A stretch of 50,911 nucleotides of DNA from an uncultured bacterium (GTDB lineage: Bacteria; Verrucomicrobiota; Kiritimatiellia; RFP12; UBA1067). Every line of letters starts with the position of its first letter. The stretch's first letter is position 1. The notes beneath the pieces were generated by a model. It was not told the origin of the DNA, ran no database searches, and saw only the letters and a program-made list of their open reading frames with translations. The position numbers were made by a program, and so were the translations under genes. Shown here one piece after another: positions 2,527 to 36,561 of this stretch. The stretch covers positions 1 to 50,911 of the forward strand of contig CACYQU010000009.1 in the NCBI GenBank assembly GCA_902776615.1, given 5' to 3'.

Positions 2527-2561
2527 CCGAGCCTCAGACCATCCAAAATCGAGGCTGAATA

Positions 2562-2570
2562 TGGTATAAT
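2562..2570 (+). promoter_or_regulatory. Extended -10 promoter of mnmE
   Basis: TGGTATAAT. Predicted +1 near 2577; leader of about 32 nt to ATG 2609 with GAGGAG at 2593-2598. Confidence 0.75.
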
Positions 2571-17113: not shown

Positions 17114-17140
17114 CTGCACCCCTCTTTGTCCTGCAAAACA

Positions 17141-18046
17141 TCACGCCTGCCGGGCGGTGGACTGCACCGCCGCCGAAAGCACGTGCGACTCTCCCGGCGC
17201 AAGCGCCGAAACAGCCTTCGGCCACGCCGTGACCGGCTCGACGCAGACGAACCTGCGCCAGTCGCCATCCTCAAAATCGGCGATCTTCCCCTGCGGGCCA
17301 GGATTCCACACGACCGCACTGCCGCTTCCTGTCGACACCATCGCCACCGCACGGCCAAGCCCGGCGTCCAGCAGAGCGAACTCGTGCTTCGGCGCGGGCG
17401 GAAGCGTGAACACGTGGTCGGCCTCGGTGTTCATCGAAAGGTCGCCCGCGAGAACGTGGTCCGACATGTCCCGCGCGTCCACGTACGAACACCCGTCGAG
17501 ACCCCTCACGGTCGTCTGGTCGCGGTCGCGCACGAGGAAGTAGGGATGAAACCCCGCCGTGAACCCGAACGGCCCGTCTCCCGTGTTCTTGGTTGTGAGC
17601 TTCAGGTTGAGCTTCATCGAGACGGAAACCTTGTACTCGAGGTCGAAGTCGTGAGGCCAGAGCGCCTTGGTTTCGGCGGAGGACTTGAGCCCCAGCGTTA
17701 TTTCGGTCATGTCCTCCGTATACTCCGTTCCGCGCACTTCGAAGGGCATGACGCGCGCGAAGCCGTGCGCCGCCATGCCTTCGATCGCAAGCCGGCCGAA
17801 CTGAGGCCAGCAGACGGGCAGCCCGCCATGGATGGACTCGCCGCGATTGTAGTCGCGCTTCGCCGGGCGGAACAACACAGGGCTGTGGCCGGTCGGCCTG
17901 TACGAAAGCACGTTCGCGCCGAGAAGCGCAATCTCGGCGGTTCCGTATTTGTTGGCGAGCACCACTTCGGGATAGCCCGCGAACCCCGGATGGAACACGA
18001 TTCGCCCGGGTGCGCCGTAGCGGCTGTTGAGTTGATCGACCGTCAT
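17141..18046 (-). CDS. Hexose-phosphate mutarotase-like aldose epimerase (YeaD type)
   Basis: 301 residues. Motifs of the D-hexose-6-phosphate mutarotase branch: GGLPVCWPQFG, HGFAR, FHPYF with the catalytic His, and RFVCVEPVTAWP with a late Glu. Interconverts anomers of phosphorylated hexoses, cytoplasmic. AAGGAGA precedes ATG 18046; a longer in-frame start at 18067 would overlap the previous gene by position and has no SD. It lies directly upstream of rhaB, 27 nt away, which fits a role in sugar catabolism. Confidence 0.88.
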   Translation of the reverse strand: MTVDQLNSRYGAPGRIVFHPGFAGYPEVVLANKYGTAEIALLGANVLSYRPTGHSPVLFRPAKRDYNRGESIHGGLPVCWPQFGRLAIEGMAAHGFARVMPFEVRGTEYTEDMTEITLGLKSSAETKALWPHDFDLEYKVSVSMKLNLKLTTKNTGDGPFGFTAGFHPYFLVRDRDQTTVRGLDGCSYVDARDMSDHVLAGDLSMNTEADHVFTLPPAPKHEFALLDAGLGRAVAMVSTGSGSAVVWNPGPQGKIADFEDGDWRRFVCVEPVTAWPKAVSALAPGESHVLSAAVQSTARQA

Positions 18047-18067
18047 TTGGCAGAGTCTCCTTCCCAT

Positions 18068-19096
18068 TCACTTCTTCGCGAGCATGAACTCGCACATAAC
18101 CGTCGTGCCGTTCGGAATCTTCGACTGTATATCGAACGTATCGGCGACGCGCTTCGAGTTCGCGAGCCCCATTCCGGCCCCGAACCCCATGGAGCGTATC
18201 CAGTCGTTCGCCGTGGAGGTCCCGTCCTGGCAGGCCCACTCCACGTCCTTTATCCCAGGCCCGCGATCCTTGGCGACGATCGTGGCCTTCTCGGTATCGA
18301 GGATGAACGTTATCGACCCGCCGAGGGAATGGATGCAGATGTTGATCTCGAGCTCGTACGCGGCGACGGCCACGCGGCGGACGATCTTGTTGTCGATGCC
18401 GGCATCCTTCATCATCTTCTTGATTTCGTTCGCCGCCTTGCCTGCATTCGAAAGGTCGTTTCTCACAACCATGAACTGGCGCATCGAATAGTACGGCAGC
18501 GCACCCTCGCTCTTCGCGCGATCGTCGGCGGGGGCGGCCTTGCCCTCGAGTTTGGCGATCTCCTTCGTGAGCTCCTGCATGAGTACGCGCGTGACGTCGC
18601 GCTGCGAGACGATGCCTACGAGGTCGCGCTCCTTGTTGAGCACGGGGAAGCGCCCGAACGTGTAGCTCTGGAAGAACTTGATCGCGAACGCGAGCGGCAT
18701 GTCGGCCTCGAGCACGACGAGGTTCGTCGCCATGTGCCGCTGGCACGTGTCGCCGATCCATCCGCCCTCGAGAGCCTTGATGATGTCGTTTACCGAAATT
18801 ATGCCGAACAGTCTCTTGCCCTCGACGACCGGCACGCCAGAAATGTTGTTGAGCTTCATCAGGTGCTGCGCGCGGGCCATCGTATCCGTGCGCGAGACCG
18901 CGATGATGTCGTGGCCGCGCATCACGTCGCGAACGCGCAGACGCTGCAGCAGCTCCATGATGACGAGCGGGCTGTCGTCCGCGCCGGGCAGCCCCGGACC
19001 GGACACCCTTCGCACCTGGTCGTGCGCGGCGAGAATCTCGTCGTCGCTTTTCGACTCGCCGCCGGTCAGGATCTTCGGGCTGTAGACTTCGGGCAT
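18068..19096 (-). CDS. CBS-domain pair fused to a HATPase (anti-sigma/serine kinase-like) domain
   Basis: 342 residues. Residues about 45-190 form two CBS domains (VRDVMRGHDIIAVSRTDT..., GIISVNDIIKAL; then MATNLVVLEAD..., GIVSQRDVTRVL) that usually bind adenosyl ligands. Residues about 215-340 form a GHKL ATPase with N-box VAAYELEINICIH, G1 DRGPGIKD and G2 GFGAGMGLANSKRV, closest to RsbW/SpoIIAB-type regulators. I infer a ligand-controlled ATPase or kinase. It is sandwiched between a DRTGG gene and sugar genes. Similar HATPase, DRTGG and PHP genes sit beside [FeFe]-hydrogenase loci in Clostridia and Thermotogae, as far as I know. Confidence 0.85.
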   Translation of the reverse strand: MPEVYSPKILTGGESKSDDEILAAHDQVRRVSGPGLPGADDSPLVIMELLQRLRVRDVMRGHDIIAVSRTDTMARAQHLMKLNNISGVPVVEGKRLFGIISVNDIIKALEGGWIGDTCQRHMATNLVVLEADMPLAFAIKFFQSYTFGRFPVLNKERDLVGIVSQRDVTRVLMQELTKEIAKLEGKAAPADDRAKSEGALPYYSMRQFMVVRNDLSNAGKAANEIKKMMKDAGIDNKIVRRVAVAAYELEINICIHSLGGSITFILDTEKATIVAKDRGPGIKDVEWACQDGTSTANDWIRSMGFGAGMGLANSKRVADTFDIQSKIPNGTTVMCEFMLAKK

Positions 19097-19107
19097 GGCT
19101 CTGGTAC

Positions 19108-19449
19108 CTACTTCTTTTCGGCTTCGAGGAAGTCGTGTATCCTCACGCAGCTCTCGTACTTCGAGAGCGGCGAAGAAACAAGCGGTATTCCGAGCGTGTC
19201 GGCGACCTGGCACATCGTCTTCGGCAAGGGCTTGGCGTTGTGCACGACAACCGCCATCGCGCCGACGATGTTCGCGGTGCGTATGGCCTGGTCGGACGCG
19301 AGCGAGGTCAGGAGAAGCATGTCTTCGCCGTCGTTCAGGAGCACGTCGCTCATGAGATCGTTTGCCACTACTGCGCCCACGGTCCGGTCGGATTCTCCGC
19401 CGGCCACGAGCGTCCCGTCAAGAGTCTTTACAATATCCTCAATGTTCAT
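19108..19449 (-). CDS. DRTGG-domain protein (copy 1)
   Basis: 113 residues, one DRTGG-type domain: VAGGESDRTVGAVVANDLMSD, then LLTSLASDQAIRTANIVGAMAVVV and IPLVSSPLSKYES. Paralogous to the gene at 20259-20594. The domain is known from phosphotransacetylases and hydrogenase-linked clusters; its ligand is not established. ATG 19449 is about 2 nt from the predicted +1 (leaderless). First gene of the long minus-strand operon down to 13133. Confidence 0.82.
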   Translation of the reverse strand: MNIEDIVKTLDGTLVAGGESDRTVGAVVANDLMSDVLLNDGEDMLLLTSLASDQAIRTANIVGAMAVVVHNAKPLPKTMCQVADTLGIPLVSSPLSKYESCVRIHDFLEAEKK

Positions 19450-19457
19450 GATGCAAG

Positions 19458-19479
19458 ATTATACCATATTTGGTAGAAT
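19458..19479. promoter_or_regulatory. Divergent back-to-back promoters for the two DRTGG/PHP units
   Basis: Minus strand TGGTATAAT at 19466-19458 and plus strand TGGTAGAAT at 19471-19479; only four bases separate the two elements. Predicted +1 sites near 19451 (-) and 19486 (+) are 2 and 3 nt from the start codons of the flanking genes. The two promoters should compete for one polymerase. Confidence 0.7.
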
Positions 19480-19488
19480 AGCGGGGCA

Positions 19489-20241
19489 ATGAAGTTCGAT
19501 CTGCACATACATTCCTGTCTCAGCCCCTGCGCAAACCTGGAGATGTCGCCCGGAGAAATCGTTTCCCGCGCAATATCCGCAGGGATGGGCGGCATCGCCC
19601 TCACCGACCACAACTCGGCCATGAACACGCCCGCCATGGCGCGGCGGGCGAAGGCCGCAGGCCTCGCGTGCCTGTTCGGCCTCGAGGTGCAGACCGCCGA
19701 AGAGACCCACACCCTCGCGCTCTTCGACACGCCCGAACAGGCGCTCGCCATGACGGAATGGGTGTACGCCGCCATGCCCAAGCGCGTCAACGACCCCGAT
19801 ACGTTCGGCGACCAGCCCATCCTCTCGGCCGACAGCGACGAAGACGAGATCGCCGACCTGGAGTGGCGCATCCTCGCAATGGGCTGCCGCAGGACGATTC
19901 CCGAAACGTCGGCGAAGGCGCACGAGCTGGGCGGGCTCTACATCGCCGCGCACATCGACCGGCCGAACTACTCGGTCGTCACGGCGCTCGGCGCAGTTCC
20001 GCGCGCGCCGGACGGATCGCCCTACTTCGACGCGGTGGAGCTCTCGCGCACCGCAGACGAAGCGCAGTGGCTCGCGAAGGCCGAGGACTACGCGCTGACG
20101 CGAAGCTCCGACGCGCACAATCCTGACGATGTCGCGCGGGTATGGACCGAGGCGCCGCTCGCCGGGTTCTCCGTCGCCGAACTGAAGCGCGCGTTCGCAG
20201 GGCACACGACGCGCCTCTCGCCGCGTCTCACGGCATTCTGA
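19489..20241 (+). CDS. PHP-domain phosphoesterase
   Basis: 250 residues. Metal-binding PHP motifs: DLHIHSCLSPC (H6, H8), LTDHN (D40, H41), FGLEVQ, AAHIDRP, and a final SSDAHN. These bind two or three metals and hydrolyse phosphate esters in the family; the substrate is unknown. SP-C-A-N near the start is typical of the hydrogenase-cluster PHP proteins. Nearly leaderless. Divergent from the DRTGG/CBS-HATPase operon and followed by a second DRTGG gene. Confidence 0.87.
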   Translation: MKFDLHIHSCLSPCANLEMSPGEIVSRAISAGMGGIALTDHNSAMNTPAMARRAKAAGLACLFGLEVQTAEETHTLALFDTPEQALAMTEWVYAAMPKRVNDPDTFGDQPILSADSDEDEIADLEWRILAMGCRRTIPETSAKAHELGGLYIAAHIDRPNYSVVTALGAVPRAPDGSPYFDAVELSRTADEAQWLAKAEDYALTRSSDAHNPDDVARVWTEAPLAGFSVAELKRAFAGHTTRLSPRLTAF

Positions 20242-21894: not shown

Positions 21895-21903
21895 ATTATA
21901 CCA
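21895..21903 (-). promoter_or_regulatory. Extended -10 promoter of the DUF3127-prmC unit
   Basis: Minus strand TGGTATAAT; predicted +1 near 21888, leader about 27 nt with an AAAAGGAG SD. Diverges from the promoter at 21934. Confidence 0.72.
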
Positions 21904-21933
21904 TATTTCCGCCGCACGCGCCTGCGGCTCTTT

Positions 21934-22809: not shown

Positions 22810-24609
22810 TCACCTGTTGGTGGCGTACAGCGGGCCGAAGTTTCCGCAGGCGCGGTAGTCGGCGCCCGTCGGATCGTCGGACGCGCCGAAGAGCCCCCAG
22901 CAGTGCGGACGGTACACCTGTTCTTCGGGCACGTTGTGCATCGCGACCGGTATGCGCAGCATCGACGCAAGCGTTATCAGATCGGCGCCGATGTGGCCGT
23001 ATGCGATCGCGCCGTGGTTCGCGGCCCAGGCGTTCATCACCGAATAGACATCCTTGAAGCAGCCCTTGCCCGTGAGCCGCGGCGTGAACCACGTGCACGG
23101 CCATTCGGGGTTTGTGCGCAGCATGAGCTTTTCGTTCTGCGCGCGGTCGAGCGCGACCGACCACCCCTCGGCGATCTGCAGCACCGGCCCGAGCCCCTTT
23201 ACGATGCTGATGCGCGTCATCGTAAGCGGCATACCGCCCGGCGTGAGGAACGAGCTCGAGAACCCGCCGCCGCGGAAATACTCCACGCCCGCCGGAACCC
23301 AGCGCGTGGCCTTCATCGTGGCGTCGATATCCTTGTCGGTCACGTTCCACCACTCCTTGAACGTGCGCGCGCCCTTTTCCTTCATCTCGCCGGCGGCGTC
23401 CAGACAGCAGCTGCCCGAATTCAGCAGGTGGATGATTCCCTGGCGGGCGACGCCCTTGAGCCCCTTGCCCGTGGCGCGCTTCACCGACTCGTCGCTCCAG
23501 TAGGTCCGCACGTCCGCAAACATCGACGCCTTGTTGGTGAGCAGGTACATGAGCAGCATGCACGCGCCGTTCAGCGAATCGTTCTCGGTCGCCACGATCT
23601 GCGGCGGCTTGGGGCCGTTCCAGTCGAAGGACGTGTTGCAGAACGCCTCCATGAAATCGCCGTTGGGCCAGTGGTCGGTCCACTGGCGCTGGCCCTGGAA
23701 ACCCGCCGCGATGGCGTTGCGCCCGACGGCCTCTTCGCCGAAGCCCATGTCGGCGAGGCGCGGATTGCCCACCATCATGTCGCGCATGACGATCGCCATC
23801 TTCACGACGTACGCCCAGTCGAGATCCTTCTGTTCGCGCGTCTTCCGGATCGCCTGCGGATTGTAGTCCTTGCCCTCGATGCAGTTCTTGCGAACCCATG
23901 CCATGGCGTTCTTGTACTCCTGGGGGTCGTATATGCCCTCGGCTATGCGGCGCTCGATTTCGCACATGTCCATGTTCTCGGGGCGCATGCCGAAATAGTC
24001 CTGGAAGAAATCCACGTTGACGAACGAGCCTGCGATGCCCATCGCGCTGGAGCCGACCGAAAGATAGCTTTTGCCCTTCATCATCGCAACCGCGAGACCG
24101 GCCTTCACGAAGCGGAGGATCTTCTCCTTCACGTCGTCCGGCACGGAGGTGTCGGTCGCATCCTGCACATCGCGCCCGTAGATGCCGAACGCCGGCATGC
24201 CGCGCTGTGCGTAGCCCGCGAGCATGCAGGCGAGATAGACGGCGCCCGGGCGCTCCGTGCCGTTGAAGCCCCACACCGCCTTCGGGATGTCGGGGTCGGC
24301 GTCCATGGTCTCGGTTCCGTAGCACCAGCACGGCGTGACGGAAAGGGATACGCCCACGTTGCTGTCGCGGAACTTCCTGGCGCACTTCTCCGCCTCGTAC
24401 ACGCCGCCGATCGTCGTGTCGGCGATTACGCACTCGACGGGCGAGCCGTCGGGATATTTCAGGCTGCCGGAGATGAGCCTGGCGGCGGTCTTGGCCATGT
24501 TCATCGTCTGCACCTCAAGCGACTCGCGCACGCCGCGGCGCCTGCCGTCGATTATCGGGCGGATTCCGACTTTGGGGAATCCGTTCATATTCCATACTGT
24601 CTGGGACAT
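22810..24609 (-). CDS. fucI: L-fucose isomerase
   Basis: Converts L-fucose to L-fuculose; 599 residues, the family length. Recognised by [20 protein letters not shown] at the start, [28 protein letters not shown], and the metal/active-site regions with E-D-H residues ([30 protein letters not shown]-type stretches belong to another gene). The start ATG lies one base after the fucP stop with SD GAGAGGAG, so it is translationally coupled to the transporter. No fuculokinase or aldolase in the window. Cytoplasmic hexameric Mn2+ enzyme by family knowledge. Confidence 0.95.
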
Positions 24610-24610
24610 G

Positions 24611-26149
24611 TCAACTCCTCTCTGTTTTTTTGTTGTTCGAGAAAATCAGCGCGTAGGCCAGCACCACCGCAAAGCAGATCGCAGGCACCGCGAACGACGC
24701 CCTGAGCGAGGTCTGCGAAAGCTTGAGGTTGACGTCCCACGCGGTATCGAAGCCGGATACGAGGCGGCACCACACGCTCTGCGTGTCGCCGATTATGCGG
24801 GCCATCCAGGGCGTTATGACGGCGCCGCCGAGAATCGCCATTATCAGGCCCGAGGCCCCGAGCTTGAGGGCCTTCCGGTCGAGACCGCCAAGGGCAATTC
24901 CGTATATCGTCGGGAACATGAGCGACATGAAGCCGCTCATCGCCACAAGGCAGAGTATGTTCGCCGAGAAGGGAAGCCCGCCGGCGGCAAACACGACTTT
25001 CGTCGGCAGATACATCACGCCGGCGCAGCACGCTATCGCGCCGACGGCAAACGCGGCCATCATCTTCGCGGGGTTCAGATACTTCATGAGCCACGTCGCG
25101 ACCCAGCGGCAGACGATGAAGAGCGAAATCGCCATCGTGTAGTAGAGCGCCCCCTGCGCCGGCGTGACGCCAAGCTCCTTCTGGCAGTACACGTTGAGCC
25201 ATGTCCACGCGGCTATCTGCACGCCGACGTAAAAGAACTGGGCGACGACGCCGAACCAGTAGCGGGGCGTCACGAGAAGAGTCGCCAGCACCGTGCGGTA
25301 GTCTTTGGCGAGAATCGTGTATACGAGCGGACCTGTTACGCCGCACAGCACCCAGAGTATCTTGTCCATATCCGGGAAAATGAAGTAGAGCGCCGTCATG
25401 GGAACCACCGAGAACGCAAGCGCCGCGCCGACGTGCGAAAGCGCCGAACGCGAAGGCGCAACCTCCCCCTCGCGCCTCGCCAGGAAGAAGAACCATATCA
25501 GCGCCGCGACCGCGCAAAGCCCGACGTAAGGCGCGCAGACCCAGAAAAGCTCCTTGTCGATGATGCCCTTGAGAACTTCCGGCGCCATTTGCGCGCGCTC
25601 CCCGGCGGTTGCGGGATCGAGGTGGGAAAGGATGAGCTGCTGCGCGAGGACTATGCCGCACATGGAGCCGACGGGGTTGAACATCTGTGCGAAGTTGAGG
25701 CGGCGGACGGCAGTCGCCCCGTCGCCCAGCGAGAGGACGTACGGATTGCACGTAGTCTCGAGAAGCGAACATCCGCCGGCGACGATGAAGATGGCGATGA
25801 AGTAGATGTCGAAACTCTGGGCGATGCACGCGGGTATGTACAGGAGCGCGCCGGTTATGTATATCGCAAGCCCGATAAGCACGCCCTTTCTGTAGCTCAG
25901 CTCCTCGGCGAGAACCGCCGCGAATATCGCGAGAACCGCGTATGCGCCGTAGAACGCAACCTGCACAAGCCCCGCGCGGGACTGGTCCATGGTGAAGATG
26001 CGCTGGAACGCAGGCACCAGATTGTCGGTCATGTTGTTCAGCAAGCCCCAGAGAGCAAAACAGCTCACGAGCATTGCGAACACGGGCAGATGCTTTTTGG
26101 GGACAAGCGCCACCCCGGCTTTCGTCGTGGAAGTCTCGGATTTCATCAT
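24611..26149 (-). CDS. fucP: L-fucose:H+ symporter-like MFS transporter
   Basis: 512 residues, about 12 membrane helices. [18 protein letters not shown] near residue 31, with the acidic residue that binds substrate/proton in FucP, and [17 protein letters not shown] with [11 protein letters not shown] in the middle are FucP-type motifs. The name is supported by direct linkage to fucI. Two tandem ATGs (26149, 26146); the first lies 1 nt after the predicted +1. Its length is above E. coli FucP (438), mostly from longer loops. Confidence 0.9.
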
Positions 26150-26156
26150 GTTGCGT

Positions 26157-26165
26157 ATTATACCA
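26157..26165 (-). promoter_or_regulatory. Extended -10 promoter of fucP-fucI (leaderless)
   Basis: Minus strand TGGTATAAT; predicted +1 at about 26150, next to ATG 26149. No operator-like repeat is evident. Confidence 0.75.
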
Positions 26166-26194
26166 TAACCCCGCCTGCGGTGCTTTCAACCGGG

Positions 26195-29100
26195 CTACCT
26201 TGGTTTTGCGGGGAGAACTTTCACGCGGAAGAATCCGCTAGGTTTCTCGCTGCGGTCGCGCGGCGAACCCCTGACCTTGTGGCTCGTCCCCTCCGCACGC
26301 TCGAACGAGCGGACGTCGTTCTCGAACAACACACCGCCGCCCAGCGCGTCCGAAACCTCGTAGCCGTACCAAAGGCCCCGAATTGCGTTGGAAATCGTGA
26401 CGCTCACCGTCGTGTTGCCGTCATTGTCCTCCTCTACCTCGACCGGCTCGCCCTCCTCGACATGCCCGGCGACAATCGGGGCCGCCACGGTCTCGGGGTT
26501 CGCAACGACTGCGGCCTTGTATTTGCCTGGGCTCCCTTCGACCGGCTCGGCGACGACTTTCAGATACTGCGCGTCAAGTCCGGCGGTGATGTCATCGTCG
26601 CTCAGGGCAGGCTTTGCGTTCGCGACAAGTTCGTCCGCCGCCTCCTGGCTGTCGGCGGCAAAGGGCTCGCTCGACCCTCCGTTGTTCGGAAGCGCCTCGT
26701 GCCACTGCGAATCGCTTGCAACTCTTGCATCGATGGAATCGCACACAAGATATCCGCCTTTGCCGTACGCAAGAGGGAAGTTCTTCTGCGTCACCTTGAG
26801 CGATTGGCAGACCGAGCCGTACTTGTCGTAGATCGCGATCTGCTGCTTGTTGTTCTGAATCTTCTCCCAACCCTTGTCGGAGTAGTCCGCTTGGCTCGCA
26901 GTCCACGACTTAAGCGGCGCGATGCTGCCCTTGCCCTTCTTGTTCTCAAGCGTAACGTGGCAGTGCGCCGTGCCATCTTCGGGGTCGCCCTGCTTCAAGA
27001 AGCACACCGTCACTCCCGCAAGATCAAGCGTGACGGCATCGGAAATGTTCGTGAGCGTGAACCATTCGCCAGCGTCGCCGTCGCCGTCAAGTGTGTTCCC
27101 GTAGAAGGAATGGAGCCGCAGATACTTGAGCTCGTCAGTCTGCGGAATCGCCGAATACACAAGCGCGCCGTCCGCATCATAAAGAGCGACCGGACCCGCG
27201 CCGGTGAACGTGGCGTTGCCGACGATGACCTGGTCCGTCAGCTCGTCGGAGTGCGACGTCACGTATGCACGGCGGTCGGCCACTACATAGATGGAGTCGT
27301 TTGCATCGCAGACAGTGCCAGCGGGGAAGGTGAAGTCGACCGAGAACGCAAGCCGCCATCCGCTCATGTCGACTACTTCATCATTGGCGTTGCGGATGAC
27401 GACAACCTCCGTATCGTAGAGCTGCCCCGCAACGCCAAGCGCTTCGGCATCAGCCGCGTCAAGCGCCGTGAGGTTGGATATGGAGATATTCGGAGCGAGC
27501 GTCTCAACCGGGCTTTGTGCCTTGGGGATACCTGCGTTGAGGTTCGAACCGTAGCCGACTTCCTTCGCCGTGTTGGTGACGGAGTGCGTCACATACAGAT
27601 GCTCGCGGCGCGGCACTACATAGTTGTCCCAGATGTCCTGAATGCCCGCATCCATGTTCGCCGGACGACCGTTGCTCGGCCACACGTCGATTGCGTAGTC
27701 AGAGCCGTTGTTCGGCCATTTGGCGAGATCGAGCGCGGCGTCGGTGCGCATCAAATCGGCCATCTCGCGCATCTTCGCCATGAAAGGCGTATCGCCCTCG
27801 GCTGTACCCGGCGACTTCAATTCCTGATCCATCAGTGTCCTCAAACGGCGCAGATAGAGGCGGCGGAACTTGGCGGACTGCAAGACCGACTCGAAGCCGT
27901 CATTGCCGTAATTTATTGTTGAAGTCATCGCGGATGACGAGTAGCATCTTACACGATTGCCGCCATATAACGGATGGCACTTGAACCAGTCATCCTGTGC
28001 CTTGAGGCCCGAAGCGCCCATACCGCCATCACGATAATGCTGTCCGAACGTCAGGTTGAAGTCGTAGCCTAGCGGCATCCACGTTCCCGTGCCGCGAGCG
28101 CCCTCCTTCATATCCGGGTTGTCGTAGTAGATGCAGACATTCGCCCAAACGTCATCCATCTCCTGCGTAATGCGCGCCGAGGCGAAATAGTTCAGCCACG
28201 CGGGGAGGTTGAACTTCTGGACGACGAACTTCGTGAGCGCGGCGTTGTCGAGACCGTCAGACCCTCCATCCGGCGAACTGGATACCTGCTGCGCCGCGGT
28301 TATCTTGGAGCGCAGCTCGTTCTGAAGCACCGTGATGTCGCTTTCGTTTTCATCGTCCGGCGTTTTCTTTTCAATGCCCCCTGCGGTCGTGCCCGAACCG
28401 CTCTTCAGCGTCCCGACGTTCTTGTAACTGTAGCCGAACTTGTCGAGTCCGTAAACATCCTCGACAAGCTCGTCCGTAAAACGCTCGGAGTTGAATGCGA
28501 GCTGGTAGAACTCGCCGTTCAGGTTGCAGCGCACCGGGAAGTCGAACGGCACGAGGTTGCCCATCTTCTTCCACAGCCAGAACGCGACCATCTGGCGCAT
28601 GCAGCTCGGGTCTGCGAACTCGCTGATGAGCGAAGTCTTGCGAATCTCCTCTATCGGCTCGCCCGTCACACTGTCCACCATCGTAAGCGGATGGGACTTT
28701 GCAAAGCGGAGGCCGTGCCCCTTCTTCGTGAACCCGGCGGAGGTGTTTCCGCGAAGGTCGATTCGCACATAGTCGTAGTAGTTGGAAGTGGACGAATCGT
28801 ATATCGCCACACGCGCCTGGTTCGGGACCTTGGAGCGATCCTGCTTGTCGGCATCGACATCCATCTGCGTCAGGTGGTTGCCGCTCGCGAACATGTGCCA
28901 GGTCGGCAGCATCGCGCTCATCTGCGTCGCTGGGTCAGGCTCGACAATTGTGCCGTACCACTCGTATCCGTCGTCTGGGTTGTTGAAGCTGGGCGAAGTC
29001 CATCCCACTCCTTCGCCGTCGGTAATCAGCACCTTCCACTGCATAAGATGCCCGGCGGCAGGGAAGTAGACCGCCGGAATCGTCGCAGTGTACTGGTCGC

Positions 29101-32100
29101 CCCAGTTTTCGACAGCATTCTTCGTAGTGATGTCGATATCGTTGGTGACGAGCGTCGAATCGTCCAGGTCTTTGCGGAACACGAACTTCAGCGACTGTAT
29201 CTTGTCGGCGGCGCGCGGCGTAAACGTTCCGTCGGGATTCATCACGCCGTTGACCGGCAGCGTCACGACATAGTTCTCGCCCGGCGTGGCCGGCGGGGTC
29301 GGCACCGCGAACTCGTTTGCCAAATCGGTCTTCTTCTGCCCCTTCTTCTCATAGAGCGGGCCGACGTTCGGGCCAATGCGCTTAAGTCCGTCCGTAGACG
29401 TGTTCGCCCTGCCGCGCGTCGGCGTGGGGCAGAGCCAGCGGCGCGTGCCTTCGCCTTCCGCCGCATCGCCGACGATGATCGACCAACCCTCGGGCAAGTC
29501 GCTGGGGATGACGACGGTATCGACGACCGTGCCGCTGTCAGAGTCGCCTCCCGGCGCATGGTAGAGGCGGACGTATGGCGACTTCTTCGGATTCACCTTG
29601 TCGCCCCATACGAGGATGTTGTGTAGATCGGTGCCCATGACCATCGGCTTGCCGTCGAATGTGCCGTGTTCAAACGCACTCACCGTCTGGTCCTTGCTGT
29701 TCGAATAGCGTTCGGACGTGTAGAATATCGCACGGCTGCGCGGCGGCACAAGGCGGGACGGAAAGTTGCCAAAACCCGCCGGATCAGTCTTCTTGCCGCG
29801 GTTCACGCGGATGAAGCGGTAGTCGGCAAGGTCGGCCCACTTGTCGGACGTATTCTCTACCTCTACCCAGCCACTTTCAAGTCCATTCACGTCCATCCCC
29901 TCCATGCCATTCAACGTCTTCGCGTCCGTCGGCTTCGGCATGATCTCGCTGATCCTCAGCACGCACGCGTTCGTTACCTCAGGTTCAATCCCACCGGTTG
30001 TCCTGTATAGGTCAAATACGGCAAGTTGATTCGCTATCGGTTCGCCCGAATAATCTACAAGGAAGTCAAAAGGCGTGAATACGCGCGCGGCAGAAGACGC
30101 AGAAGACAACGCACTGGAATTGTCCGGGCCAAAATCGGTATCGACTGCAAATATCTTCATGCCGGCTATCGGGTAAGTTCCAGCAGAGTCGCTTCCGAAC
30201 GACACTGTTTTCGACACCAGATGAAGATTGTTATTACCCGTCCATTTTATGCCGGCGTCAGATGCGACTTCTACTCCGTCAAGATAGAGCTTTGCACCGC
30301 CCTGTGTCTCGTAGGCAAGCGTCCAGAGATGAATTCCAGAAACATCGAGTACGCTAGATTTGACAGATGATGCCGTCTTGGCCTTGTTGTCATAGTATAT
30401 TATGAACGTGCCATCGCCGTTGGCATAAGCATAGACCCTGTGTTCGTTCGAACCCCTTGCATCGACAATTCCAACGAGAGCCCCTTCGGCTCCGTCCGGC
30501 AGCTCCGCGAGGACGCTCGCAACGACGGCGTTCGTGCTGCCAAAGTCGAGTGTCTGCGTAATGCCAGTCTCGTCGAGGACGAGACCATCGACGTGTGAGT
30601 CCGGCACTTTCGTCGCATCCTGCGGAAACGACCAAGACACTTCGTCGCTTGTCGAAGAGTGAGCGCACTCAATATTCGCAAGGACGATATCCTTGAGCCA
30701 CACGGCATCGTCGGCCTCGGGCGTTCCATCCTTGTAGTCCTCAGAATCATTCATCGCAAAGCGCTGCGAAAACACGAACGTCACCTCGTGCGTTCCCGCA
30801 GGGATGTCAACCTGCGCAGCACTCCAGCTATTCGTGCATTCTGTCTGCGTCAATACCGGCGAATCATCCAAGAGCACATCGAAGTGCGAATAGTTGTTGT
30901 CGGCTATCGTCGTGCCGCCGAAGTACGACTTGTGCTTGAACGAAAGGCGCTTCGGGCCAACTATCGTCGCCTTGAGCGGCGTCGTGCACTGATATGTGTA
31001 GTCGGTCTGCTTGTAGCTGCGAATTGAATCCCCTTCTGTTGTCCAAGGATACTTATTGCTAGTCTGCCACAATCCTTCCGATGGAATATTGGCTAGCTTG
31101 TAGAATTGGACTGTGCGCGTAGGCGACATTACACTGTCTTTCAAATAGGCCACCTTTAGCGTCTTGTCTGCTTTGATATTGAGCGAAACAGCCGACTGCG
31201 TTGCCCAGGCCATATCATTGTCTTTCGTTGGCTCGCTGCCATCCAAGGTATAATATAATGTCGCCCCCTCGACAGGAGCCGCAACCGTTACTTTAATCGA
31301 ATCCTTGAAGACGCACCCAGAAACTATCTTGTCTCCGAATTCGTCGGTAACCATCGTCTCATCTCCATACGGTTTGACGCTATCACGCCATTGCGCTACA
31401 TAACGGCACGTCTCCCGCAAGACTCTGGCGTTATCGTTGTCTGCGTTACCGAGCGTAAATCCAAACTCTCCCGACGATGTAGAGAAGTAAGGCGAGGGAT
31501 GTGCGTAAACATCCGTTCCGTCAACATCGTAAGCCATAATGGTATGACGCTTGGTCTCACCATCCATGAAGTAGTACCCGCGCCCGTAACTGAATGGCGA
31601 ATTGGCCTCACTCTGCGCTCTCGCATGCCCGCACCCCATGTTGTGCGCATTTTCGTGGATCATTGTATGCTGGGTGCCAGTATCTACCGCCACAATGCTG
31701 CAAACGCTAAATGCATCATCGTGGCACCCTGCCACATCAGTATTGGAAGTAAGCGGCGAACTGTTCCCCAGCGTCGCGCCACTAGTATTGACAAGCAGCG
31801 TCACGGTATCTGCCCCATACAGCTCGCGCATTGCCCGTAAGGTTACCGCCGCACCATCCCCTTCCGAAACCATAGCCGGCGCGGTGTCGATATTGTCATA
31901 CGTACCAGACACCTTGCAAACGCCTGCCAATCTATAGGAATAGCATGTGTCCAATTTATTGGTAGCGAGGATATCATTCATCTTGTCGATTTGCTGTTGC
32001 GCAAATTCTTCCAGCGACCTTTCGCCCATATATGTTACCGCTCCATTGTCATATGCTACCAGCACATCCACAACTGGCAAACGGGTCTGATACTCAACAT

Positions 32101-35100
32101 AATTAGGGTCATACTTGTAGCAAAGTTGCGTTGTAGAGTTGCCAAAAACCGCTTTGTAACCTGCGGGCTGCATCTCTAGCTTGTCAATGTTGGCAAAACC
32201 GCCATTCGCGGTCAACATCGGAATCGCGCCATCTTCAGCAGGATTGTCCAAGACAATCCTAAGCTTCGAGCAATCCAGCGAAACCGATCCTGTTATGCTC
32301 AATGCCGCGCCGTTCGCAATCGTCACGGTTGAATTGTTCACGCTCACGCTGGCCACAGTCAACGAATTGGAAAGCAGAAGTCCCGCATCTTGAATATTTA
32401 GATTTGCCGTAGAGAAACCAGATACATCGCAGTCCGCGCCAATTGCCAGATAGCCGTTGTTAACCGTAACGCCTGCTCCGTCCGACTTGGTCGAGAGCGA
32501 GCCAGTGACAACCGCAGAAACAGGATTCCACTGGTCGCCAAACATGGAATCGCTCGCACACTTCAGATTCTTGACGGCAAGCGATCCACAAAGTTTCGCA
32601 CCGCTCCCGTCAAGCGTCACAACTCCGTCGCCCGTGATTGCACCCGAGCCTGTGAGCCTAGCCCCGCTCGCTACGGTATACGCCCCGGCGTTCTCGTGCT
32701 CGGCGTTCAGTGCGAGCGTCATTCCTCCGCCGATTTCCGTAGCCCCACTATAGGTAAGCGCCTCGTCGCCGAAACCATTTTGCACATAAGTCCCCTCACC
32801 CGACAGCTTGATTCCGCCTGTCGAAGTCGAATTACCTACATATACCACATTGTTGACAAGGCATGCATTATTCGAGAATTTGAACGAAGGGCTCCCGTCC
32901 CTCATATACACATACTTGGCATCTGTGGTGGCTGATATGTCGCAGTCCAGCGAAGAATCCGCAGATACGTTCAGCGTCAAGCCATTCATCAAATCAAGTC
33001 CTCGACGACTGCTTGCGCCTTTCAGCAGTATGCTTCCGCCAGCAAAATTCACTGTTCTTCTCAGGCTGTCGCGAGTATTGAATGTTACTGTGCCGCCTTG
33101 TCTAATCGTCAATGTGCTGTTGCCTACATTATATCCTGTCACATCACCTTTTTCAAAAACCAGATTGCCACCATTTTCTACATCAAGTTGCAAACTACCA
33201 AAAAGCCCTTTTCCACCATTGGCATCTCCGGTAAATCTAACTGTACCTTCACCGATAATGAATTTAGATGTATTCCAGTATGTGCCGGTATTGTTGAACT
33301 TTTCAAAAGTCTGCGTCTTACCATTGCCAGGCGCAACTCTTAGCGTCGATGCCGCGCCTACAACGATAGGCGTACTGGGACTGAATGTTGCCGATGAGGA
33401 TGTTGCGTTTGGTCCAAACGGAGCATTGAACGCATATGTCTTCCCGGCTGCCACCGTGAATGAATCCGCCTCCAGTTTCACGGGAACATTGAATGTTACA
33501 TTACCGGAAGGACTGAAGTTTGCGTCCGGAAATGTAATGCTCGCATTATCGTCGCCCTTGTCAAACGTATAGGCTGTTGTCGTAGCGTTAAATGCGACAG
33601 TGCCCGGCACGACTTCGCCTTTTACTGTTACGGTGGACGATGAATTGCCAGAAAGATTGCCGAATGTAACGGATGGAGAAAGACCGTTCTCGAAAGAGTT
33701 TGCTGAATCGTTCCACGAAAGTACGGCAGAATCGCTCATCCAGCGGCCGTCTCCGCTCTGCCCGGCTTCGCCGGACCATGCAAGTGGAACGCTGTCAACA
33801 AACGAAACGCTCTTCAGGAAAAGACCATGTGTGCCGCTTACTGGCTTTGAAGAGTTTTGACCGTACACAAAACGCACATCATGTGTTCCCGCTGGGATAG
33901 AAACTTTTCGTGTAACATCGGCTGAAGATCCGCTCGCATCCAACATCAATTCTTCGCCGTCAATTGTGACACTAAAGGAACTACCGTTGAGGAAAGCTGT
34001 CTTATATGTAAACTCCATAAGCTTTGGTCCATCCACCAAAGTGCCTAGCCATGTTGAATTGTGCAAGGGACCTGTGCCAAAGTTGTAGTTGAATATATAG
34101 GTTTGTGCGCTCTGCCCCCATTCGTTCTGCGGTGAACCTGACCAGATACGTGTGGAATCGCCAAGCCATGTGCTCATGTCCACTCCGCCCTTGTTTCTCG
34201 TCTTGTAGTTCGATATCGCCACGGCGCTGGTTTTGCCATCCACATCAACCGCTATTGCCTTTATTGTCGCATTGCCGCTGACGGCGATTGGAGCGGTGTA
34301 GAGCGATGATTTGGCGGTTGGAGTCGATCCGTCGGTTGTGTAGTAGATTGTCTGGCCGTCACAATCTGTATAAAGAGTCACGTTTATGGTGTTATTGAAC
34401 GAGGCGACGTCACGAGGCGAAAGAATCACTTCTGTCGGATTATCAACCAGTTGCAGGTCATCAAGCCACACGCCAGAATCTAAGTAATGATAATTTCCCT
34501 GTGAATAAACTACGGCTACCCTGTGGAGCCCCGAAGGTATGTCAACATAATCCCTGCGCCATGTCATACTTGACTCAGAGGTCGCAAAAGTTTCCCCTCC
34601 TTCACATACGACCGAAAAGCGTCCCCAGATATTATATCCCTCAGACTGTGAACCAAAATTGGATTTGTGGCGAAAATACAAACGTTTAGGTCCTGCTATC
34701 TCCGTTGCAATGTACGAGACCTTGTCAGCACCATATGCTTCCCCAAATGTATAGTTATGCAACACCGTTGCAGTTCCGTTAGTCCAGTCAGTGGTTGACA
34801 CTGTCTGCCAGGGATAGTCGCCGCTCGTTTCCCAAACAAGTCCTTCGGAGCCTGGGAATGCAGGAATAGATCCTTTGACAAGTCTCACGGAACGCACAGA
34901 TTGCGCCACTCCGTCAACCACTATCGAAGCCGTCAATGTTGTTGTATCTGTTACTGTAATAGTCGAATAAGGGTTATATGGCAATGATTGAGTATTTGGC
35001 GTTGTCCCGTCACTCGTCAAATATATCTTCGCCTCCGAATACTTGCTGTCAACCGAAAGAACAACTTTCATGCTGTTCTCGAAAATGCGGCCGTTTCTAA

Positions 35101-36490
35101 GCTCATTGCCGTTTTCGTCAAGGAATCGCACATCCCATTCATATGGAACTACATGGTTGCGATATGCGCTTACACCAGCACATGTTTCCATCAAGACCCT
35201 ACGATTGTTATTGCTTATCGTAGTACCGATTGAAATTCCATATTCGTCTGGAGTCAGGTCTGGTGAAGAGAAATATGGTGCGGCAGCCCAGCTTAAATAG
35301 TAGTTCCCATCGGCGGTGTTATAGCCCATCACAGTACGATAACGTTTATTGTCCGTCTCAGCGATAAAGTGGAAGCCGCAGGAGTATGTAGTTGACTGAG
35401 GGGCTTTAAACCCATTGTTCCTGTTACTGTGTCCACATCCCATGCAATGCCCGGTTTCGTGAGCCATGGTGTATTCCCTGAATGTACGCTGAATATGACA
35501 GATATTGTATCCATACTGGTTAAGGGCATAACTGCTCATACTGGCAGAATCTACGCCGTACAGGCCATTTGCGATTCCAGTGGTGTATGAGTTCTGATTT
35601 TCATCGACATTCACAAGCAAAGTAACGGTATCAGCACCATAGTAGTCGCGCAATGCCGGGATCTTCTCAAACGGAGCAGCACCTTTGCGCAAGTCGGTCA
35701 ACATTGCATCCGTAATGTTATTGTACTCGCCATCAACTTCTGTTGTACCGACAAGCCGAAATAAAAACTTATCATCCACTTTTGTATTAACAAGAACATC
35801 ATTCATTCTCTGGATTGCAGCATCCGCACAGTCTTCAAGAGAATCCCACTCGCTTTCATCGCGGAGCGCCCACGCTTTAGCCCCTTGATCGAAGGCGACG
35901 AGGATATCTACAACTCTCTTTTGCTCTGCGAGGGGGAATTCATTGCCGGATGCGCCAAGCAGCGTGCGCGACTTTTTGGTTGACGTTGTCTTGGTTTCTT
36001 CGACGGCCGGCTGAGGGACCTCGATATCGCCGCCGCATGTGCCGCACTCGCCGTCATCCATCTGCGAATTGTCGCGCTCGACTATGAGCACCTTGCCGTC
36101 CTTGCAGCGGACGGTGTACTGCCGCCGGTTCATGAAATCGTCCACGGATATGCGGGCGGCCTTTTCGCTTACCTTCACAATCGCCGAGGCCGAACCGTTC
36201 GCATCCTTCGCGATGAAACTCTGCCCCGCGATACCGGCCGGCGGTGCGGAAACGATTCTGAGGGCATAGTCCACATCGCCGAAAAGCCTGAGGTTCAGCG
36301 TGTCGCCTACCGCGACTGCGGGGACTGTCCCCATAACCGCCGGCATCTCCGCGCGCCGCAATACAGGCGCTTCGGCGTCATGCGCAACGCCACAGGTGAA
36401 GTCGAGCGTATACTCCGCCGCACAGGCCGCAACCGACCAAAAGAGCGACGACGCGATAAGCAGCGCCGCCGCATTTTTCCCTCCAGACAT
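26195..36490 (-). CDS. Giant secreted protein: two metzincin domains, chitobiase-like domains, LamG-like, LTD and CotH-like domains
   Basis: 3431 residues with a signal peptide (residues 1-26, ending SVAACA). Metzincin 1: HETGHCMGCGH at 344-354 with Met-turn VMGY. Metzincin 2: HENAHNMGCGH at about 1612-1622 with Met-turn IMAY. Chitobiase-C-like repeats (YYTTDGSTPTA type) near 470-540, 690-770 and 1720-1800. A beta-strand-rich, autotransporter-like stretch at about 900-1430. LamG-like domain about 1960-2130 (YLDGVEV). Lamin-tail-like domain about 2175-2380 (ISEIMPKP). CotH-like region about 2530-2930 (DLRGNTSAGF, GYDFNLTF). Further LTD-like units about 3000-3260. Ends SGFFRVKVLP without a barrel. 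SD AGGAGG before ATG 36490. Likely a surface or extracellular protease/adhesin; substrate unknown. Confidence 0.85.
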   Translation of the reverse strand: MSGGKNAAALLIASSLFWSVAACAAEYTLDFTCGVAHDAEAPVLRRAEMPAVMGTVPAVAVGDTLNLRLFGDVDYALRIVSAPPAGIAGQSFIAKDANGSASAIVKVSEKAARISVDDFMNRRQYTVRCKDGKVLIVERDNSQMDDGECGTCGGDIEVPQPAVEETKTTSTKKSRTLLGASGNEFPLAEQKRVVDILVAFDQGAKAWALRDESEWDSLEDCADAAIQRMNDVLVNTKVDDKFLFRLVGTTEVDGEYNNITDAMLTDLRKGAAPFEKIPALRDYYGADTVTLLVNVDENQNSYTTGIANGLYGVDSASMSSYALNQYGYNICHIQRTFREYTMAHETGHCMGCGHSNRNNGFKAPQSTTYSCGFHFIAETDNKRYRTVMGYNTADGNYYLSWAAAPYFSSPDLTPDEYGISIGTTISNNNRRVLMETCAGVSAYRNHVVPYEWDVRFLDENGNELRNGRIFENSMKVVLSVDSKYSEAKIYLTSDGTTPNTQSLPYNPYSTITVTDTTTLTASIVVDGVAQSVRSVRLVKGSIPAFPGSEGLVWETSGDYPWQTVSTTDWTNGTATVLHNYTFGEAYGADKVSYIATEIAGPKRLYFRHKSNFGSQSEGYNIWGRFSVVCEGGETFATSESSMTWRRDYVDIPSGLHRVAVVYSQGNYHYLDSGVWLDDLQLVDNPTEVILSPRDVASFNNTINVTLYTDCDGQTIYYTTDGSTPTAKSSLYTAPIAVSGNATIKAIAVDVDGKTSAVAISNYKTRNKGGVDMSTWLGDSTRIWSGSPQNEWGQSAQTYIFNYNFGTGPLHNSTWLGTLVDGPKLMEFTYKTAFLNGSSFSVTIDGEELMLDASGSSADVTRKVSIPAGTHDVRFVYGQNSSKPVSGTHGLFLKSVSFVDSVPLAWSGEAGQSGDGRWMSDSAVLSWNDSANSFENGLSPSVTFGNLSGNSSSTVTVKGEVVPGTVAFNATTTAYTFDKGDDNASITFPDANFSPSGNVTFNVPVKLEADSFTVAAGKTYAFNAPFGPNATSSSATFSPSTPIVVGAASTLRVAPGNGKTQTFEKFNNTGTYWNTSKFIIGEGTVRFTGDANGGKGLFGSLQLDVENGGNLVFEKGDVTGYNVGNSTLTIRQGGTVTFNTRDSLRRTVNFAGGSILLKGASSRRGLDLMNGLTLNVSADSSLDCDISATTDAKYVYMRDGSPSFKFSNNACLVNNVVYVGNSTSTGGIKLSGEGTYVQNGFGDEALTYSGATEIGGGMTLALNAEHENAGAYTVASGARLTGSGAITGDGVVTLDGSGAKLCGSLAVKNLKCASDSMFGDQWNPVSAVVTGSLSTKSDGAGVTVNNGYLAIGADCDVSGFSTANLNIQDAGLLLSNSLTVASVSVNNSTVTIANGAALSITGSVSLDCSKLRIVLDNPAEDGAIPMLTANGGFANIDKLEMQPAGYKAVFGNSTTQLCYKYDPNYVEYQTRLPVVDVLVAYDNGAVTYMGERSLEEFAQQQIDKMNDILATNKLDTCYSYRLAGVCKVSGTYDNIDTAPAMVSEGDGAAVTLRAMRELYGADTVTLLVNTSGATLGNSSPLTSNTDVAGCHDDAFSVCSIVAVDTGTQHTMIHENAHNMGCGHARAQSEANSPFSYGRGYYFMDGETKRHTIMAYDVDGTDVYAHPSPYFSTSSGEFGFTLGNADNDNARVLRETCRYVAQWRDSVKPYGDETMVTDEFGDKIVSGCVFKDSIKVTVAAPVEGATLYYTLDGSEPTKDNDMAWATQSAVSLNIKADKTLKVAYLKDSVMSPTRTVQFYKLANIPSEGLWQTSNKYPWTTEGDSIRSYKQTDYTYQCTTPLKATIVGPKRLSFKHKSYFGGTTIADNNYSHFDVLLDDSPVLTQTECTNSWSAAQVDIPAGTHEVTFVFSQRFAMNDSEDYKDGTPEADDAVWLKDIVLANIECAHSSTSDEVSWSFPQDATKVPDSHVDGLVLDETGITQTLDFGSTNAVVASVLAELPDGAEGALVGIVDARGSNEHRVYAYANGDGTFIIYYDNKAKTASSVKSSVLDVSGIHLWTLAYETQGGAKLYLDGVEVASDAGIKWTGNNNLHLVSKTVSFGSDSAGTYPIAGMKIFAVDTDFGPDNSSALSSASSAARVFTPFDFLVDYSGEPIANQLAVFDLYRTTGGIEPEVTNACVLRISEIMPKPTDAKTLNGMEGMDVNGLESGWVEVENTSDKWADLADYRFIRVNRGKKTDPAGFGNFPSRLVPPRSRAIFYTSERYSNSKDQTVSAFEHGTFDGKPMVMGTDLHNILVWGDKVNPKKSPYVRLYHAPGGDSDSGTVVDTVVIPSDLPEGWSIIVGDAAEGEGTRRWLCPTPTRGRANTSTDGLKRIGPNVGPLYEKKGQKKTDLANEFAVPTPPATPGENYVVTLPVNGVMNPDGTFTPRAADKIQSLKFVFRKDLDDSTLVTNDIDITTKNAVENWGDQYTATIPAVYFPAAGHLMQWKVLITDGEGVGWTSPSFNNPDDGYEWYGTIVEPDPATQMSAMLPTWHMFASGNHLTQMDVDADKQDRSKVPNQARVAIYDSSTSNYYDYVRIDLRGNTSAGFTKKGHGLRFAKSHPLTMVDSVTGEPIEEIRKTSLISEFADPSCMRQMVAFWLWKKMGNLVPFDFPVRCNLNGEFYQLAFNSERFTDELVEDVYGLDKFGYSYKNVGTLKSGSGTTAGGIEKKTPDDENESDITVLQNELRSKITAAQQVSSSPDGGSDGLDNAALTKFVVQKFNLPAWLNYFASARITQEMDDVWANVCIYYDNPDMKEGARGTGTWMPLGYDFNLTFGQHYRDGGMGASGLKAQDDWFKCHPLYGGNRVRCYSSSAMTSTINYGNDGFESVLQSAKFRRLYLRRLRTLMDQELKSPGTAEGDTPFMAKMREMADLMRTDAALDLAKWPNNGSDYAIDVWPSNGRPANMDAGIQDIWDNYVVPRREHLYVTHSVTNTAKEVGYGSNLNAGIPKAQSPVETLAPNISISNLTALDAADAEALGVAGQLYDTEVVVIRNANDEVVDMSGWRLAFSVDFTFPAGTVCDANDSIYVVADRRAYVTSHSDELTDQVIVGNATFTGAGPVALYDADGALVYSAIPQTDELKYLRLHSFYGNTLDGDGDAGEWFTLTNISDAVTLDLAGVTVCFLKQGDPEDGTAHCHVTLENKKGKGSIAPLKSWTASQADYSDKGWEKIQNNKQQIAIYDKYGSVCQSLKVTQKNFPLAYGKGGYLVCDSIDARVASDSQWHEALPNNGGSSEPFAADSQEAADELVANAKPALSDDDITAGLDAQYLKVVAEPVEGSPGKYKAAVVANPETVAAPIVAGHVEEGEPVEVEEDNDGNTTVSVTISNAIRGLWYGYEVSDALGGGVLFENDVRSFERAEGTSHKVRGSPRDRSEKPSGFFRVKVLPAKPR

Positions 36491-36514: not shown

Positions 36515-36523
36515 ATTATACCA
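36515..36523 (-). promoter_or_regulatory. Extended -10 promoter of the giant gene
   Basis: Minus strand TGGTATAAT; predicted +1 near 36508, leader about 18 nt carrying AGGAGG. Confidence 0.75.
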
Positions 36524-36561
36524 TAATTTACCCTGCACCGCCCAATCGGCGAACACCACGG

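Follow-up and report, generated by a model that had tools for sequence, protein, structure and literature searches.

The stretch at positions 1 to 50,911 of contig CACYQU010000009.1 of an uncultured Kiritimatiellia bacterium (assembly GCA_902776615.1; the whole stretch is called the window here) carries a gene for a 3431-residue protein that joins two metzincin metalloproteases with intact zinc-binding residues, M1 and M2, to a CotH kinase-type domain flanked by lamin tail domains (LTDs). The same architecture recurs in other genomes of the genus, the divergence along the gene is mosaic, and in one relative the metzincin part is replaced at the same locus by a sialidase-type domain. The C-terminal part of these proteins (LTD1, the CotH domain, further LTDs and a C-terminal domain, often with a LamG-like unit ahead) is called the chassis, and the part in front of it the head. 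The reading that we favour, with about an even chance of being right, is that of an exported protein whose CotH-LTD chassis takes interchangeable glycoprotein-processing heads, the head of the window protein being a double metalloprotease. Such a protein would be exported through Sec as one multidomain chain, with the chassis conserved and the enzymatic head variable.

A first-pass annotation, made from the window's letters, described one chain with two metzincins, each followed by chitobiase-C-like units, and with LamG-like, LTD and CotH-like domains. Profile searches bear out most of this description. Reprolysin_5 (PF13688) matches two stretches (58.4 bits against a cut-off of 27, E 1.5e-15), either of which alone exceeds the cut-off; CHB_HEX_C_1 matches three times (E 1.3e-33), with a unit of this type after each metzincin; LTD (PF00932) matches three stretches (64 bits against 34.3, E 1.9e-17); and CotH (PF08757) matches residues 2577-2892 (69.1 bits against 23.8, E 6.4e-19). 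The LamG-like unit has no Pfam match in the window protein, and Laminin_G_3 matches two orthologs weakly, below its cut-off (24.5 and 21.8 bits against 27.6). Domain borders (Table 1) were refined beyond Pfam by comparison with relatives. The giant protein is the sole source of Reprolysin_5 and CotH matches in its own assembly (127 contigs, 2.35 Mb, 87.75% complete).

M1 has the zinc motif H344-ExxHxxGxx-H354 and a Met-turn at Met388, M2 has H1612-ExxHxxGxx-H1622 and a Met-turn at Met1652, and HExxHxxGxxH is kept in all 56 related domains inspected. The structural model of M2 (predicted local distance difference test, pLDDT, 85; predicted template-modelling score, pTM, 0.87) is closest to CpaA of Acinetobacter (PDB 6o38_A; Z 21.4, root-mean-square deviation 2.6 over 197 residues), with the runner-up at Z 16.4. 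Its matches to CpaA, ADAM and snake-venom enzymes (Z 15-21; Foldseek E 1.8e-9) indicate an adamalysin-type catalytic fold and give the second metzincin structural support. M1 is 31-36% identical to M2 and its relatives and has every invariant zinc residue, features that, with the Pfam match, mark it as a metzincin as well. CpaA is likewise secreted and has beta domains before or after its metzincin fold, but identity is 16%, and CpaA has a single catalytic domain, a CpaB chaperone and neither CotH nor LTD; the CpaA model NF033511 scores 20.3 bits, below its cut-off of 750. In NCBIfam, the M1 region comes nearest to the model of Mep72 of Pseudomonas (NF052434, E 5e-31), which also stays below its cut-off at 107.9 bits against 645. 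Mep72 is a single metzincin and is not known to carry CotH.

In each of the 16 double-metzincin proteins whose N-terminus is complete, a cysteine precedes M1 by 32-40 residues; the corresponding cysteine is not conserved ahead of M2. The prodomain holds a conserved CxxC (GECGTCGG), which is a candidate cysteine switch for M1 only; M1 would then probably be kept latent by the prodomain cysteine, and M2 has no prodomain of its own.

The chitobiase-C-like, jelly-roll and beta-helix units that link M1 and M2 probably serve to keep the enzyme at a glycosylated surface, and the metzincin target would most likely be a glycoprotein. A host mucin-type target is favoured, with a microbial glycoprotein second, because the nearest catalytic fold is that of CpaA, described in excerpts of PMC7542363 and PMC6299215 as an O-glycan-dependent protease, and because sialidases occur on the same chassis. 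Peptidases have been proposed, in a passage of PMC7356697 on the Kiritimatiellae isolates Pontiella, to open access to glycoprotein glycans. The case for a glycoprotein target is one of kinship of fold and of the company of sialidase and SGNH heads, and a mucin-type target is possible on the strength of the CpaA fold and the sialidase heads. The target could instead be microbial or plant material, such as biofilm matrix, competitor surface proteins or plant cell-wall proteins, on which the sugar-binding-like units would serve as a hold. We regard this as a lesser but substantial possibility: the top NCBIfam match, Mep72, is a biofilm-associated metzincin, chitobiase-C-like units are not specific to mucin, and the named relatives are Kiritimatiellae and Verrucomicrobia metagenome assemblies, many of them from the rumen or elsewhere in the ruminant gut, an environment dominated by plant and microbial matter. 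The clear margin by which CpaA is the nearest solved catalytic fold, and the fact that the same locus has, in G016, a chassis with a sialidase head, argue against it.

The model of the CotH domain with LTD1 is of moderate confidence (pLDDT 69, pTM 0.74), and its solid PDB matches are solely to CotH of Bacillus cereus (5jda and 5jd9; E 2e-12, TMt 0.74), which is also matched by sequence profile (E 1e-6) with the active-site block aligned. The CotH-like region of the first-pass annotation is thereby supported in structure as well. All 16 aligned rows, from diverged relatives, keep D2779/D2780, N2784 and D2810 unchanged. CotH is described, in the excerpted text of PMC12189002, as retaining equivalents of D166, N171 and D184 of protein kinase A, and the Asp/Asn/Asp set of the window protein appears to match them, in a comparison that does not map the numbering residue by residue. 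In contrast to Bacillus CotH, to which identity is about 16%, the window domain has a long N-terminal extension, has Asn for the second Asp of the WDYD segment, and sits in a secreted, LTD-bearing giant of a Kiritimatiellae-group bacterium. The domain would probably phosphorylate Ser/Thr of its own chain or of surface proteins, possible substrates being the attached head, neighbouring surface proteins and captured substrate.

Alternatively, the CotH part could be a structural or anchoring domain that lacks kinase action, in which case the chain would be a surface-bound protease only. This, too, is less probable than a working kinase-type chassis but has real points in its favour, namely the flanking lamin tail and C-terminal domains, the Asn in the WDYD segment, and the lack of an obvious adenosine triphosphate (ATP) source for an extracellular kinase. 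The invariance of the active-site residues in diverged relatives, and the high conservation of the CotH core relative to most of the chain, speak against a purely structural role.

The full chain of head and chassis is present in 6 of 61 genomes of the genus: the window genome, G060 (3303 residues), G064 (3193), G062 (3085), G070 (3410) and G021, in which a frame change splits the fused gene into two open reading frames (ORFs). The Pfam scan of fused relatives covered four of the five others and both G021 halves. The window gene is not a one-off fusion of genes that stand in tandem elsewhere, as the same architecture in other genomes shows, and the two G021 ORFs are halves of one broken gene. 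Domains of the M2 type occur in 15 of the 61 genomes; six are fused and seven have no CotH, and those of G081 and G082, cut at contig ends, count as neither. In a phylum sample of 288 genomes, CotH is found in 75 and Reprolysin_5 in 88. The window chassis is of the kind seen in secreted CotH and LTD proteins of Verrucomicrobiota, but among the matches listed a metzincin in the same frame as CotH occurs only in G000, G062, G064 and G070, all of the window's genus.

The metzincin tree holds 56 of 122 domains, with same-genome duplicate loci and the distant loci L103-L154 dropped. M2 domains form a single clade (support 100/100) whose stem is 1.62 changes per column long, while M1 domains occur in two separate parts of the tree, interspersed with single-metzincin proteins, and a single M1 clade is rejected by the approximately unbiased (AU) test (p 1.9e-5). 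Because M2 is one clade on a long branch and M1 falls in two lineages, the metzincin pair is, on this tree, old, with one or more replacements of its M1 part; the internal duplication suggested in the first-pass annotation is rejected as a recent event. Its further suggestion that a CotH module was added fares no better as a single event. Grouping the CotH domains of the fused proteins into one clade is rejected by the AU test (p 4.2e-5), the window CotH groups with a free CotH of G018, and the CotH-bearing C-terminal part also occurs alone or with other heads. Parsimony on the fused state gives six changes; it omitted 4 of 17 M2 rows, two at contig ends (L080, L082) and two whose frames stop just past the jelly-roll unit (L081, L085), which could alternatively be counted as unfused. 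The head meets the chassis where the last jelly-roll unit gives way to the LamG-like unit, and five of the six fusions share this position and a similar linker, G070 being the exception.

The gene of G060 is a syntenic ortholog, in the order RlmKL, ACT, DUF711, giant gene, PrmC. Synonymous divergence (pS) between the window and G060 is 0.27-0.72 across eight flanking genes. The giant gene itself ranges from 0.09 in the prodomain to 0.85 in M1; the helix region stands at 0.74, M2 at 0.78 and the LamG-like unit at 0.80, and the CotH domain as a whole at 0.41, with parts of its core at 0.14-0.21. The break at about position 35,940 coincides with the border between prodomain and M1. Because synonymous sites are nearly unchanged in the prodomain yet saturated in adjoining M1, the pattern fits segment exchange and not amino-acid selection alone, and we infer that the gene is a recombination mosaic. 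Homologous recombination in the prodomain, the CotH core and module borders would swap heads and alleles between species.

It is improbable that the mosaic and some of the joins are assembly artefacts, made by stitching strains together at the near-identical prodomain and CotH core. The assemblies are fragmented throughout and the G021 and G016 genes are frame-broken, as such an artefact would have it. However, the joins are taken to be real because the full architecture repeats in four other unbroken frames of 3085-3410 residues; the head-chassis join is also at one place in five of six fused proteins, and a sialidase-chassis join is found in two genomes at different loci. Still less probable is rapid point-mutational selection as the source of the M1 and LamG divergence, for although M1 is the less conserved metzincin in every fused pair compared, its synonymous saturation beside the prodomain and the split of M1 rows over two clades speak for exchange.

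Replacement of the head is seen directly in G016. At the same locus, ACT and DUF711 (DUF711 at 96%) come first, and the next gene encodes a CotH-LTD chassis whose BNR/neuraminidase-type head has YRIP and two Asp boxes. Identity to the window protein is 91% in LTD2, 87% in LTD3 and 68% in CotH. A head 60% identical to this sialidase head stands on an intact 2688-residue chassis protein at another locus, in G065. Enzyme domains were found in 5 of 10 chassis N-termini that lack metzincins, sialidase-type in L066 and L161 and SGNH/GDSL-hydrolase in L065 (G034), L162 (G076) and L069 (G010). That relatives share the kinase end but have other enzymes ahead of it suggests an exchange of parts between strains. 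A separate observation concerns L168 (G074:C105), where one 2983-residue frame has two CotH domains with LTDs beside each. Polymorphic or modular surface proteins likewise pair a conserved end with a variable enzymatic N-terminal end at one locus; the heads here differ in being glycoprotein-processing enzymes, and no immunity gene, silent cassette or invertase turned up, none having been specifically sought.

Several points weigh against a chassis with exchangeable glycoprotein-processing heads. No enzyme domain was found in the other five non-metzincin N-termini (L058, L067, L070, L167 and L168, of which L168 is truncated at a contig end). DUF711 is present in 48 of 61 genomes of the genus, and a neighbouring chassis gene was seen only in G000, G060 and G016, the genomes with the closest DUF711 (96-100%). 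Every genome compared in detail is a fragmented assembly, strain chimerism in metagenome-assembled genomes may add to the mosaic, and two of the genes compared (G016 and G021) have frame breaks. The cysteine switch is suggested by position, protease and kinase activities are predictions from conserved residues, and the low identity to CpaA, the moderate CotH model and the ATP supply of an extracellular kinase count on the same side.

The giant gene is taken as the ORF of 3431 residues counted from ATG. An AGGAGG ribosome-binding site and the promoter-like sequence TATGGTATAAT stand immediately before this ATG, so the longer GTG start at 36559 is unnecessary; it contributes promoter and ribosome-binding sequence and nothing more. 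There are five copies of TATGGTATAAT in the window against 0.01 expected from shuffles; the copy at 36515 immediately precedes the giant gene and that at 26157 immediately precedes fucP. Other genomes have it as well, close to where several related secreted-protein genes begin, and 28 of 176 loci contain it; it is probably a genus-wide extended -10 promoter element.

Table 1. Features of the giant gene and related elements (window coordinates unless a locus is named; aa, amino acid residues of the protein).
Feature	Position	Strand	Basis or remark
Whole giant gene	26195..36490	(-)	3431 aa
Promoter-like TATGGTATAAT, then AGGAGG ahead of ATG	36515..36525	(-)	sequence motif
Copy of TATGGTATAAT	2560-2570	(+)	
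Copies of TATGGTATAAT	19458-19468, 21895-21905, 26157-26167, 36515-36525	(-)	
Signal peptide (about aa 1-25, read from sequence) and prodomain, aa 1-184	35939..36490	(-)	96% DNA identity to G060
Metzincin M1, aa 185-450; zinc motif aa 344-354, Met388	35141..35938	(-)	Pfam, alignment
Chitobiase-C-like unit a, aa 451-545	34856..35140	(-)	Pfam, comparison with relatives
Beta-sandwich/jelly-roll-like unit 1, aa 546-690	34421..34855	(-)	resembles unit 3, which is beta in M2 model
Chitobiase-C-like unit b, aa 691-765	34196..34420	(-)	Pfam, comparison with relatives
Beta-sandwich/jelly-roll-like unit 2, aa 766-900	33791..34195	(-)	comparison with relatives
Beta-helix/autotransporter-repeat-like region, aa 901-1460	32111..33790	(-)	suggested by sequence character; aligns in relatives
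Metzincin M2, aa 1465-1708; zinc motif aa 1612-1622, Met1652	31367..32098	(-)	Pfam, alignment, model
Chitobiase-C-like unit c, aa 1709-1803	31082..31366	(-)	Pfam, relatives, M2 model
Beta-sandwich/jelly-roll-like unit 3, aa 1804-1945	30656..31081	(-)	relatives; beta in M2 model
LamG-like unit, aa 1946-2130; head-chassis join at its start	30101..30655	(-)	weak Laminin_G_3 in orthologs; junction alignment
LTD1, aa 2170-2350	29441..29983	(-)	Pfam, alignments
CotH kinase-type domain and N-terminal extension, aa 2380-2985	27536..29353	(-)	Pfam, alignment, model
CotH active-site block, D2779/D2780, N2784, D2810	28061..28156	(-)	alignments with relatives and B. cereus CotH
LTD2, aa 3000-3120	27131..27493	(-)	Pfam, comparison with relatives
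LTD3-like unit, aa 3121-3270	26681..27130	(-)	Pfam, comparison with relatives
C-terminal domain, aa 3290-3431, end FFRVKVLP	26198..26623	(-)	common to chassis proteins of the genus
Sialidase-type head on CotH-LTD chassis	L066:4517-12390 (G016)		frame broken between LTD1 and CotH

The genes fucI and fucP lie at 22810-26149, between the giant gene and PrmC, and among the syntenic loci seen only the window genome has them there. The first-pass annotation had placed a possible mucin-targeting surface protein beside them. The adjacency is missing in the two closest species, as PrmC is directly downstream of the ortholog in G060 and fucP and fucI are absent from the 20-kb G016 locus; fucP also has its own promoter-like motif. 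Linkage to the fucose operon was therefore set aside as functional evidence, the placement being apparently an insertion or rearrangement. The C-terminal domain was also considered as a general sorting signal and rejected, with no second copy in its own assembly at the completeness given above (next match E 0.27). Elsewhere in the window, an 836-residue open frame at 16982-19492 (+) has no Pfam match and lies opposite annotated-looking genes. This frame and that at 24335-27922 (+) are probably shadow frames of G+C-rich minus-strand genes.

The domains of the protein are individually known; in the open-licence PMC literature searched, no report of protease, protease and kinase joined in one exported protein was found. 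A wider proposal is that of a genus-wide system in which double O-glycoprotease-like metzincin, sialidase and SGNH hydrolase heads, together with alleles, would be exchanged through recombination in the prodomain and CotH core, letting strains that share a ruminant gut vary how they attack sialylated and O-glycosylated glycoproteins of the host, and in which a working extracytoplasmic kinase would act on the attached enzyme or captured substrate. In this full extent it is doubtful. One locus with several heads is nevertheless a more interesting point than the original observation of a joint architecture, since the replacement of the head is a concrete case of uncultured ruminant-gut Kiritimatiellae diversifying their secreted enzymes. 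CotH as the common end of different glycoprotein-processing enzymes bears on the role of CotH outside spore coats, and O-glycan dependence of the metzincins, if real, would bring two divergent enzyme lineages into the small toolbox for glycoprotein analysis.
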